NCBI GenBank assembly: GCA_903862885.1 | Contig: CAIOZU010000053.1 | Coordinates: forward strand, 1-64,000 | From: an uncultured Pseudomonadota bacterium | GTDB taxonomy: Bacteria; Pseudomonadota; Gammaproteobacteria; Steroidobacterales; Steroidobacteraceae | Length of the DNA stretch: 64,000 nucleotides | Direction of reading: 5' to 3' | Shown here: positions 1 through 22,049 of the stretch, one piece after another | Layout of the letters: every line of letters starts with the position of its first letter | Numbering within the stretch: position 1 is the first letter of the stretch | The notes under the pieces: model-generated | The model's database searches: none | The model's input: the letters and a program-made list of their open reading frames with translations, nothing else | Told to the model about the DNA's origin: nothing | Made by a program: the position numbers and the translations under genes

Positions 1-152
1 CCCCCGTGGGTCTTGCGCCACCGAAAGTAGGTCTTATCGGTAACCCCTAACTGCTTGCAGACCTCGGCTACCGTCTTGCTTTGACCTGACAGAACGTCAG
101 CCTCGCGCAGCTTGTGGATGATCTCTTCCGTCGTAAACCGTTGTTTTGGCAT
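1..152 (-). CDS. IS3-family transposase OrfA, N-terminal part
   Basis: Fifty codons are visible, starting MPKQRFTTEEIIHKLREADV and ending in YFRWRKTHG at the window edge. This is the helix-turn-helix DNA-binding N-terminus of IS3-family OrfA proteins (HTH_Tnp_1 type), which recognise the IS ends; the catalytic DDE part is in OrfB, outside the window. A GGAGGG Shine-Dalgarno lies about 9 nt before the ATG. No frameshift is seen in the visible part, so the element may still be intact. Confidence 0.8.
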   Translation of the reverse strand, partial: MPKQRFTTEEIIHKLREADVLSGQSKTVAEVCKQLGVTDKTYFRWRKTHG

Positions 153-219
153 GATCTTAACCCTCCGTTCCTCTATTTTAGGGAACATCAGGCTGGACCA
201 GTTATCTCAAGGCAGGTCA
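1..219 (-). mobile_element. IS3-family insertion sequence, left end, cut by window edge
   Basis: Read on the minus strand, the element begins at 219 with TGACCTGCCTTGAGATAACT and continues past position 1. The terminal TGA followed by an imperfect repeat, and the OrfA start about 70 nt inside, fit an IS3-family end. The boundary is set by the amidase reading frame, which matches its family up to 220 and then runs into the IS and stops. The other end and any target-site duplication lie outside the window, so completeness and activity cannot be judged. Confidence 0.75.
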
Positions 220-599
220 GCCGTCGTTGGCATAGGATCCATGCTCTCGATGTTGTCCTTGAGTAGGATGGGGATGCCGTGCAAAGGGCCACGCAACCTG
301 CCGGCACGACGCTCCGCATCGAGTGAACGTGCGGCGTCAAGAACCGCCGGATTTACGGCAAGCACTGAGCGATGCTCGGGACCGTGACGATCAAATCGTT
401 CGATGCGTTCAAGATAGGCGCCGACGAGCTCCTCTGACGTCACGGTACCCGCGGCCAAGGCTGCACTCAGCATGGTGATCGACTGTTCGGTTGGGTCAAA
501 TCGCCGTGATCGCGCGGCGCTGCCAAGGCTAATCGCAGGTGCGAGCGTCGCGCCTGTACCGATGACACTAAGGAATTTTCTTCGATCCATAAAACTCAT
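207..599 (-). pseudogene. Tat-exported amidase, truncated by the IS
   Basis: The N-terminal 127 codons of an amidase-signature enzyme remain. A twin-arginine signal (MDRRKFLSVIG, then a hydrophobic stretch and Ala-rich region) points to Tat export. The family region PLHGIPILLKDNI, which carries the first catalytic Lys of the Ser-cisSer-Lys triad, is present. At the family motif DPMPTTAG the frame enters the IS, reads D-L-P and stops at 207. The Ser nucleophile region is lost, so the remnant cannot be an active amidase. The rest of the gene may lie beyond the IS. The start could also be the internal ATG at 590. Confidence 0.8.
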
Positions 600-5387: not shown

Positions 5388-7181
5388 TTAGCGGTTCGCC
5401 GTAGCGCTTGGCATCGTTGGTCCCATAAGGTCAGGATATAACTGCTGGGGCGCATGCGCATGTAAAAAAAGAGCCGCCCGATCGTGCAGCGAACCGGCAC
5501 CGGAGGGGTCTCGATCCAGCACTTCTTTCTGAAAGACCGGCCATACGCTCAAGGCACCGGGTCCGAAATGGCGGGTAGGCTGATCGTTTTGGCGAAGCTC
5601 AAGCCAGTAGGTACCGGTCAACACGTCCTCCGCAAGCAACTCGATCGTGTCATCGACCGCCAGTCGGGCGCGACTCACTTTCAAACGACTCTGTGATTGC
5701 ATGTCCTCTACGTTTTGCACGATGGCGTTGCCCTCGGGCGGTACCGGCACGGCGAGCCCTTGAATTTCCTGCATGATCGACGAGGTCGCAAATCCTCCAC
5801 CCCAGCGTCCCCAACCGTGCTCATTGGGCGCTTTGATGCCAGTGAAAAACGGACTGGTGAAGCGGCTGATGCGTTGCGTGATGGCGGCGTCCATGTTGGC
5901 CAACGCAATCGTAAATGCCTCGAGGTCGTTGGCCATTGGGTAGGGATCCCAGTTGGCGTTGGAGACGATGTAGCCGTGTTGGTTATGGTTGCGCGGTCCG
6001 CCATGGACAAAGAACTTCTTAAGCTGCGGCGTTGCCAGTTCCCACGAGTCTTCTGGCGAGAGGCCGACACGAATCGCCGGATTGTGATCAGACGAGTTGA
6101 TCTGCAGAAGAACAGTCTCTTTTAGGTGACTGAACGCTTGCCATGCCGAGGCCTGACGGATGGATGAGGCACGTAGGCTTTCTGGATCCTGAATGATTCG
6201 TTTGGGATCGTCCTCGTACAGGTCGCTGCCACGGGTCATAGACAACATGCGCTTTGCATGCCAATTGAGCCACGGGAAGGGGCGATTCAGTTGCACCACG
6301 GCACTCAATGGGGTGACGCTGCTGTTCATGCCCTCGAGGTCAATCACGTAGGCCAAATCCGCCCAACCTAGCGCGGCCTCTGCATCGGCCAACAACAGCG
6401 CCGCCTGGCCTGTCGAGTAGGCATTGCTGCTAGTGAGCGCACTGTCATCTGCAGCGAAGGGTTTTAATGGCTTAAGTCCCGCCGCTTTCAGCGCTTGTGC
6501 TGCCGGCATGCGGATGCCGCGGTAATAGGCGTCACCCACACCCACCATCGTAGCGCCGACATTCATGAGTGGGCCGAGATCCCCTTCGCCGACCGTGCCG
6601 CGCGAACGCACCACCGGTGTGATCCGATGATTAATCAGATCCAGCAGCATCTGTGTGAGGGCGGGTGTTGCGGCCTCATAGCTCATGGTATTGGCGCGCA
6701 CCACGAGCATGGCACGCACCACCTCTTCTGAGGCGACTTCAGGGCCTACCCCGTTGGATTCGCCACTTTGAAAGATCTGCAGTTGGCGCGCTTCGAGCAT
6801 CGCCCGATTGGCTGGCGACTCAGCATCTCCCTCAAAAATCGCTGACTCGCGACCCGCACCGGAGCCGCGATTGAACCAATAGACCGGCATGCCCTCAAGG
6901 GTGGCTTCGAGCAATAGGTTAAAGGCGGCCTCGGAGCGTGCGCGCGCCTCGTCACTCAAGCTGACCTTCGCGCCATCACGCGCCACGAGCACCAGTTGCT
7001 GGGCCGTTAAGTCGTGCCCGGTGAGTCGCACCGTGTCACTCGCGTGGCTGGGGTTTATGGGGCGATAGTCCGCGGCGTACGCTGCACTGACCGCGCTGAG
7101 GATCATCAGACAGCCGACCATCCACCACGTCGCCGGATGACCGCATCGAGGGGTAGGGGTGCCGTTGAGTGAATTCGTCAT
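5388..7181 (-). CDS. Exported PAL/HAL-superfamily protein lacking the MIO triad
   Basis: 597 aa. A hydrophobic signal peptide (WWMVGCLMILSAVSAAYA, about residues 19-36) predicts Sec export. The mature part is a homologue of aromatic amino acid/histidine ammonia-lyases: VYWFNRGSGAG (residues 100-110) aligns with YGINTGFG and keeps its Tyr (Y101), followed by QDPESLR and NSSDHNP blocks. The segment that should read [12 protein letters not shown] reads GTVGEGDLGPL (G195-L205), so the Ala-Ser-Gly that cyclises to methylidene-imidazolone is replaced by Glu-Gly with one residue deleted. Normal ammonia-lyase chemistry is therefore unlikely. Some superfamily members, such as ergothionase-type trimethylammonia-lyases, are reported to act without MIO, so elimination of a better leaving group is one option. 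AGGAAGGA precedes the ATG at 7181. Longest-frame extension upstream is not supported. Confidence 0.85.
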   Translation of the reverse strand: MTNSLNGTPTPRCGHPATWWMVGCLMILSAVSAAYAADYRPINPSHASDTVRLTGHDLTAQQLVLVARDGAKVSLSDEARARSEAAFNLLLEATLEGMPVYWFNRGSGAGRESAIFEGDAESPANRAMLEARQLQIFQSGESNGVGPEVASEEVVRAMLVVRANTMSYEAATPALTQMLLDLINHRITPVVRSRGTVGEGDLGPLMNVGATMVGVGDAYYRGIRMPAAQALKAAGLKPLKPFAADDSALTSSNAYSTGQAALLLADAEAALGWADLAYVIDLEGMNSSVTPLSAVVQLNRPFPWLNWHAKRMLSMTRGSDLYEDDPKRIIQDPESLRASSIRQASAWQAFSHLKETVLLQINSSDHNPAIRVGLSPEDSWELATPQLKKFFVHGGPRNHNQHGYIVSNANWDPYPMANDLEAFTIALANMDAAITQRISRFTSPFFTGIKAPNEHGWGRWGGGFATSSIMQEIQGLAVPVPPEGNAIVQNVEDMQSQSRLKVSRARLAVDDTIELLAEDVLTGTYWLELRQNDQPTRHFGPGALSVWPVFQKEVLDRDPSGAGSLHDRAALFLHAHAPQQLYPDLMGPTMPSATANR

Positions 7182-7341: not shown

Positions 7342-7426
7342 TGGTGCGCGGGGCGGGACTCGAACCCGCACGCCTTGCGGCACGGGATTTTAAGTCCCGG
7401 GCGTCTACCAATTTCGCCACCCGCGC
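7342..7426 (-). tRNA. tRNA-Leu(TAA)
   Basis: The acceptor stem GCGCGGG (7426-7420) pairs with CCCGCGC (7352-7346). The anticodon loop CTTAAAA gives anticodon TAA. There is a long variable arm typical of Leu, a GGTTCGAGTCCC T-arm, and an encoded 3' CCA (7344-7342). Length 85 nt. Confidence 0.97.
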
Positions 7427-20480: not shown

Positions 20481-22049
20481 ATGTCTACCCGTCGACGACC
20501 CGCGAAGCCCAAGCGTTTCACCCTGCGACTGTCGGGTGATGACCTGACCGTGGCTGATCTGCGTCGAGTCTGGGAGACGCCAGTGAGCGTATCTTTGGGT
20601 CGTGTTGCCGTGCGTGCGCTTGAGCACAGCGCCCGTGTCGTCCAGGACTTGGTCGCTCGCGAAGAAACCGCCTACGGCATCAATACGGGTTTCGGGCTGC
20701 TCGCGCATACGCGCATCGCCCGTGACGAGTTGTCTTTGCTGCAGCGAAATTTGGTGTTATCGCACGCCGTCGGCACCGGCGCCTTGTTATCTGATGACGT
20801 CGTGAGACTCACGCTGGTGCTAAAAATCGCGAGCCTCGTGCAAGGATTCTCTGGCATCCGCGTGAGCACCGTGCGTGCGCTTGTATCCCTTCTTGAACAT
20901 GACATCTATCCGTGTGTGCCGTGCCAGGGATCGGTGGGCGCCTCTGGGGATCTGGCCCCGCTGGCACACATCACGGCGGCGTTAATTGGCGTGGGTGAGG
21001 TACGCGTGAACGGGCGCGTACAGACGGCTCGCAAGGCGCTGGCGAACGCGGGTTTGAAGCCAGTGCAGTTAGGTCCTAAAGAAGGACTCGCCTTATTAAA
21101 TGGTACCCAGGTGTCTGCGGCGTTGGCCATCGGTGCCTTGCTACAGATTGAGAATGTGTTTGCGGCGGCAGTGGTCGCTGGGTCGCTGTCAGTCGATGCC
21201 CTCAAAGGATCGGATGTGCCTTTTGATGCGCGCATTCATCACGTGCGCCGCCAACCGGGCCAGCAACACATTGCGAGTATCTATCGAAAATTACTCAATC
21301 ACAGTGAAATCCGCGCCAGTCACGCCGATTGTGATCGCGTGCAGGACCCCTACTCCCTGCGCTGCCAACCCCAAGTGATGGGTGCCTGTCTGGATGTGAT
21401 GCGCTTCGCCGCTGGCACGTTGGTCCGTGAGGCAAACGCAGTCACCGATAACCCGTTGGTGTTCCCTGACGATGGCAGTGTGTGTTCGGGGGGTAACTTT
21501 CACGCGGAACCGGTCGCCTTGGCTGCGGATCAGTTGGCACTCGTGATTGCTGAAGTGGGCTCAATGTCGGAACGGCGCACTGCGCTGTTAGTCGATCCAA
21601 AAATGAGTGGTCTACCCGCTTTTCTGGTCGATAACAGTGGACTGAACTCAGGCTTCATGATGGCGCAGGTCACCGCGGCTGCATTGGTCTCTGAGAACAA
21701 ATCGCTTGCTCACCCGGCGAGCGTCGATAGCATTCCGACGTCTGCCAATCAGGAGGATCATGTATCGATGGCCACCTATGCCGCCCGACGCTTGCACCTC
21801 ATGGCAGAGAACGCCGCCGCGGTGGTCGCTATTGAAATGCTCGCCGCGGTTCAGGGTGTTGAATTTCACCGTCCGGCACGCAGCTCTCCTGTGCTGGAGG
21901 AAGCGATTGCATTGGTTCGACAACGCGTGAGTCGGTATGAGAAGGATCGCTTCTTCGCACCCGACATAGAGGCGGCAAAAGCGCTAGTGACTTCGGGTGT
22001 ATTCCGGTCCGCACTCGGTGTGGTGGCCTTAGATGGCGGACCCGGCTAG
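20481..22049 (+). CDS. hutH: Histidine ammonia-lyase
   Basis: 522 aa. The MIO-forming triad is intact in [15 protein letters not shown] (A154-S155-G156), the catalytic Tyr is in AYGINTGFG (Y65), and [28 protein letters not shown] and SGGNFHAEP are all present. It deaminates L-histidine to urocanate. GTAAGGAG lies 8 nt before the ATG. The rest of the pathway (hutU, hutI) is not in the window. It overlaps or adjoins hutC directly. Confidence 0.96.

Follow-up and report, generated by a model that had tools for sequence, protein, structure and literature searches.

A predicted exported PF00221 lyase without the MIO triad and its relationship to ergothionase

The minus-strand open reading frame at positions 5388 to 7181 of the 64,000-nucleotide stretch of DNA analyzed here (hereafter the window) raises the question of what an ammonia-lyase homologue might do without the residues from which the cofactor of its superfamily is formed. 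In HAL, PAL and TAL an Ala-Ser-Gly (ASG) triad cyclizes to MIO, which binds the amino nitrogen so that ammonia becomes the leaving group. The frame runs from an ATG at 7181 to a stop at 5388, and its 597-residue product matched PF00221 with 308 bits (E 1e-91; curated cut-off 27.3), placing it within the superfamily. Against the NCBIfam hutH model (TIGR01225) it scored 169.1 bits, far below the equivalog cut-off of 539.15. A canonical HutH with an intact ASG triad is encoded on the plus strand of the window (20481 to 22049; hutH 680 bits, cut-off 539) and served as the comparison protein. The hutH score, together with the comparison of the MIO sites, ruled out an ordinary HutH as the identity of the lyase.

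All of the motifs quoted in the original prediction were located in the translation, and all lie on the minus strand. The MIO site, GTVGEGDLGPL (residues 195–205; 6567 to 6599), reads GTVGE-GDL and is one residue shorter than the GSVGASGDL of the window HutH. Alignment with 13 ASG-bearing HALs set E199, a gap and G200 against HAL A142, S143 and G144, with HAL D145 kept as D201, confirming that the triad had truly been lost. The Glu and gap were present in 36 of 36 aligned rows, and G198, E199 and D201 were invariant in the family. The motif YWFNRGSGAGR (residues 101–111; 6849 to 6881) contains Y101, the counterpart of HAL Y53 and the catalytic Tyr that had been said to be retained. In QDPESLR (residues 331–337; 6171 to 6191), Q331, E334 and R337 correspond to HAL Q277, Y280 and R283, and in NVEDM (residues 490–494; 5700 to 5714) E492 corresponds to HAL E414 and D493 is invariant in the family alignment. 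The block NSSDHNP (residues 362–368; 6078 to 6098) is conserved as part of the fold. The HAL active site is assembled from several subunits, and the equivalents of HAL Y53, Q277, R283 and E414 were kept in 35, 35, 36 and 31 of the 36 rows, respectively. These counts disfavor the non-catalytic role that had been offered as one possibility.

The N-terminus of the protein, MTNSLNGTPTPRCGHPATWWMVGCLMILSAVSAAYA followed by ADY, has an h-region and an AxA site and is Sec-like, with a predicted signal peptide of residues 1–36 (7074 to 7181) cleaved between AYA and AD. Judged by hydropathy and an AxA-like site, every one of the 34 rows in the family alignment had a signal-like segment. The peak 12-residue hydropathy at the N-terminus was 1.7–3.2 in these rows versus 0.3–1.5 in 15 HAL-like proteins without a signal. 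The predicted export thus held across the family, and a misplaced start codon that only mimicked a signal was ruled out.

Analyses of related sequences identified relatives at 33 genome loci and in nine genomes of the window organism's GTDB family. A set of 33 full-length relatives was 42–85% identical to the window protein. Each of these 33 had GE[G/A]D at the MIO site and a signal-like N-terminal segment, so that the VGEGDL-type motif is indeed conserved in a signal-bearing clade, as the original prediction had proposed to ask. Comparison with the nearest orthologue (L001) gave a dN/dS of approximately 0.05, with dS near saturation, indicating strong purifying selection on the window gene. 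The constancy of the motif and this ratio ruled out a sequencing deletion or a pseudogene. The distribution of the family was patchy: in 369 genomes drawn evenly across the class, two besides the window organism's own genome gave a match with E < 1e-40, one of them in a frame broken by stops. A broken relative with in-frame stops and the MIO site GSIGEADI was noted in G099:C13 (L097). In four loci (L009, L011, L012, and L026) the exported lyase gene occurred as two divergent neighboring copies in tandem, an arrangement that was frequent. A nested relative in Rhizobium ruizarguesonis (L082) has apparently lost its signal and has genes for an ABC importer and a CoA ligase as neighbors, which would fit a reaction that had moved to the cytoplasm.

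Comparisons with solved proteins pointed to ergothionase. The best solved sequence match was the Treponema denticola ergothionase 6s7j (1.2e-37), followed by a HAL (1.3e-23). Ergothionase was likewise the top fold match (6.4e-25, TM 0.71/0.85) when the window protein was modeled with AlphaFold2 (pLDDT 86.7, pTM 0.87); a HAL scored 2.6e-22, and the best 50 PDB fold matches listed for the model all belonged to the PF00221 superfamily. The T. denticola enzyme reads SSIGEGDI at the MIO site, its GEGD being identical to that of the window lyase. Maximum-likelihood analysis of 62 rows gave an unrooted tree, displayed from its midpoint, in which ergothionase, the window-gene family and a second exported group were separated from HAL and several other MIO-less proteins with support of 100/99. 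The family was supported at 100/100 and its pairing with the second exported group as sisters at 95/88. The stem between these two was long (2.48 changes per column), and the function of the family may therefore have shifted further than assumed. With its MIO-free GEGD site and its place in the ergothionase clade, the window lyase is nearer to known biology than first supposed, and the idea of new chemistry or a lone exception is not supported, as the solved enzyme closest to it in both sequence and fold is itself MIO-free. To our knowledge, ergothionase is the sole characterized MIO-free lyase of the PF00221 fold. Its products, formed without MIO, are trimethylamine and thiourocanic acid, and a 2026 BLAST survey found it to be rare, while allowing that divergent homologues were possibly missed (PMC13405746).

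The pocket of the window family nevertheless differs from that of ergothionase. HAL N195 is replaced by Ser in ergothionase, in the exported sister group and in 30 of the 36 family rows, including the window protein (S251 in SSNAY, residues 251–255; 6417 to 6431). In contrast, His83 and the Lys of the WNKD motif, which were retained in ergothionase and in seven of seven sister-group members, were replaced in the family: His83 mostly by Ala, Val or Pro, and by Glu in the window protein, and the Lys by Arg111, which was invariant in the family alignment. In addition, ergothionase F326 and L277 correspond in the family to Trp411 and Glu334. Taken with the retained equivalents of Y53, Q277, R283 and E414, these family-specific changes suggest that the catalytic machinery has been kept and the substrate pocket altered. 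Ergothioneine is probably not the substrate, since the His, Lys and Phe common to ergothionase and the sister group have been replaced. A 2019 paper on ergothionase reportedly named four essential residues, with which we do not equate His83 or the WNKD Lys here.

The exported sister group (L083–L087, L090, and L093) was found on plasmids of Sinorhizobium, Burkholderia, Paraburkholderia, Paracoccus and Polaromonas, and its members, where annotated, are called aromatic amino acid ammonia-lyase or HutH. Export had been expected to be unusual for a MIO-free protein, an expectation contradicted by an entire second signal-bearing group, which resides on replicons of rhizobia, Paracoccus and Burkholderia. 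Urocanase genes adjoined the lyase in four of the seven sister-group loci (L085, L086, L090, and L093), and in L086 and L090 a gene for an MHS/ProP-like carrier separated the two. A urocanase in this position would be expected if the lyase made an unsaturated imidazole acid, and would be needed by an ergothioneine or hercynine pathway. On this gene content, the four lyases are likely exported ergothioneine or hercynine lyases. On pSymA of S. meliloti, the signal-bearing MIO-less lyase at L084:7929-9569 occurs in many strains, although several records list no feature there, and lies near an ABC transporter and a gene annotated as dimethylsulfoniopropionate (DMSP) lyase.

At its own locus the window lyase stands alone: neither a transporter gene nor MttB nor any other gene for quaternary amines adjoins it. 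It is flanked by an FkbM-type methyltransferase-like gene, a tRNA-Leu(TAA) (7342 to 7426, minus strand; 160 bases upstream of the lyase start codon), which we mention as a landmark and claim no functional link for, and an SDR gene; the same flanking genes were found at the orthologous locus L072. Scanning upstream of the lyase for promoters revealed neither a sigma-70 site nor an excess of terminators. At the start of the window (1 to 599) an amidase-like gene is cut after 130 codons, and an IS3-type transposase OrfA-like reading then follows in the same frame.

The neighborhoods of the relatives were assigned by homology searches. Gammaproteobacterial relatives lay in operon-like runs with varying combinations of a TonB receptor, a TPR-sulfotransferase, a PhnD-like PF12974 protein, a PF00487 desaturase, a TauD dioxygenase, a ProP-related MHS carrier, choline sulfatase and FolD. 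In L005 and L007 the lyase had the TonB receptor, the PhnD-like protein, the MHS/ProP carrier, choline sulfatase and FolD as neighbors; in L076 these were MttB, DAO-GcvT and FolD. DAO-GcvT was also near the lyase in L074 and L079, and MttB with FolD in L077. The genes of the relatives for TonB receptors, ProP-like transporters, choline sulfatase, MttB and DAO-GcvT demethylases point to quaternary-amine catabolism, although which substrate the lyase uses cannot be told from those for choline sulfatase, sulfotransferase and TonB. The Mesorhizobium copies had no telling neighborhood. The PhnD-like protein recurred beside MIO-less lyases from three branches (L005; L083, at 33% identity; and L089 with L092). 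Ornithine cyclodeaminase and/or a PhnD-like PF12974 protein were observed beside MIO-less lyases of different branches in L083, L089, L092, L093 and L094.

MttB homologues without pyrrolysine include methyltransferases that demethylate quaternary amines (PMC8604678), and such homologues also occur in aerobes (PMC12478193). MttB lay within 10 kb of the lyase in five of ten genomes, where approximately 0.45 would be expected (chance approximately 0.04 per genome). This linkage had a P of approximately 3e-5 if the genomes are treated as independent, and of approximately 0.006 when shared descent is roughly corrected for by counting three independent cases among eight. The 17 genomes examined had 4–10 MttB genes each, compared with presence in just one of 14 control genomes, and the argument from linkage is weakened by this abundance in the genus.

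The window organism's own genome (2.79 Mb) encodes five PF00221 proteins, and HutH is the only one with ASG. The MIO sites of its four MIO-less paralogues read GTVGEGDL (window), GAIGEADF (C36), TSYGTADL (C46) and GSVGYLSHMAH (C37). The C36 paralogue is also signal-bearing, and those of C46 and C37 are cytosolic. The C46 paralogue (L070:5031-6527; TSYGTADLTPL) adjoins a TonB receptor and two Rieske oxygenases. In the C37 paralogue (L069:5187-6686) the Asp has been lost with the triad, and its cluster of thioesterase, CoA ligase, CaiD-like hydratase, DDAH-like, LysR, MttB and DAO-GcvT genes appears carnitine-like. Orthologues in the genomes G002 and G004 kept both motifs, that of C46 as TS[FN]G[TV]ADL (L103 and L100) and that of C37 in L102 and L099, indicating that these are conserved types and not accidents. 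A search of this genome for a thiourocanase partner found only one urocanase.

Based on these observations, we favor, with moderate confidence, the interpretation of the window lyase as an ergothionase-type betaine lyase that works in the periplasm and without MIO. As read from sequence and gene context, its most likely activity outside the cytoplasm would be to remove trimethylamine from a compound of the betaine type, probably an aromatic betaine but not ergothioneine. The cofactor-free beta-elimination proposed in the original prediction thus appears the likeliest reaction. For its course we infer that Tyr101 would remove the beta proton and that trimethylamine would depart from an alpha-trimethylammonium acid to give an unsaturated acid, while E199 may hold the substrate cation. 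No MIO would be needed, as a quaternary ammonium leaves readily by itself and is unable to form the MIO adduct. In the relatives, substrate would enter via TonB receptors and be cleaved outside the cytoplasm, and the products would be imported by MHS/ProP-type carriers and passed to demethylating C1 pathways.

A plain ergothionase, acting on ergothioneine or ergothioneine sulfonate and differing in compartment alone, we regard as unlikely. Ergothionase is the closest solved relative, with GEGD and the Ser for HAL N195 in common, and soil and water bacteria do encounter fungal ergothioneine. However, the replacement of His83 and the WNKD Lys, both kept throughout the sister group, and the changes of F326 to Trp and L277 to Glu speak against this substrate, as do the lack of any urocanase-like gene near the sampled family members and the single urocanase of most genomes. 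More doubtful still is a binding or structural periplasmic protein that has kept the fold without catalysis. The frequent partnership with a PhnD-like binding protein, the loss of MIO and the several changed pocket residues would suit such a role, but the conservation of Y101, Q331, R337, R111, E199 and D201 and the strong purifying selection argue for an enzyme.

We give little credence to the cofactor-free elimination of some other good leaving group, such as a sulfonium (DMSP-like) or a sulfate ester. The annotated DMSP lyase gene near the sister-group member L084 and the TPR-sulfotransferase and choline sulfatase genes near family members are in its favor; the sulfur genes are not constant, however, and the MttB, DAO-GcvT and FolD neighbors point to N-methyl compounds. 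Returning to the betaine lyase interpretation, a broader form of it is one to which we give slightly less than even weight: that the family is an undescribed clade of periplasmic cofactor-free lyases cleaving trimethylamine from a non-ergothioneine aromatic betaine, and represents one among several MIO-less lineages of a genus in which the fold has been turned into a series of quaternary-amine lyases (four such paralogues alongside one HutH). In the open literature, the scope of our search, with most subscription journals outside it, we found no description of a secreted ergothionase-type branch with a changed pocket and no paper on a hypaphorine or hercynine lyase.

On these data, the MIO-free members of PF00221 form several families, which where annotated are called histidine or aromatic amino acid ammonia-lyase; two of the groups are exported, and MIO-free members sit among quaternary-amine genes. 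If the proposed chemistry is correct, a short check of the sequence for ASG would tell ammonia lyases apart from lyases that release trimethylamine in genomes from soil, water and plant symbionts, and many annotations would be corrected by this test.

Among known systems, HutH shares the fold and several catalytic residues with the window lyase, which differs in lacking the MIO triad, in its export, in its place in the tree and in its low hutH score (169 bits against 539). The exported sister group resembles the family in its signal-like N-terminus, its lack of ASG and its PhnD-like partner (33% identical in Polaromonas), but has G[EQA]AD and QDPLSFR and has kept His83 and NKD as in ergothionase. 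The closest parallel is the T. denticola ergothionase (6s7j, 6s7q), 23% identical over the fold match, which falls in one supported clade with the window lyase and has the PF00221 fold without MIO, the GEGD site, the equivalents of Tyr53, Gln, Arg and Glu, and Ser for HAL Asn195. The catalytic domain forms the start of the 6s7j chain; the window protein has in addition a signal, a longer inner loop and a longer C-terminus, and differs from ergothionase in having no His83, Arg for Lys, Trp for Phe and Glu for Leu. The window lyase is thus a member of a real, conserved and secreted branch of the ergothionase clade with a changed pocket.
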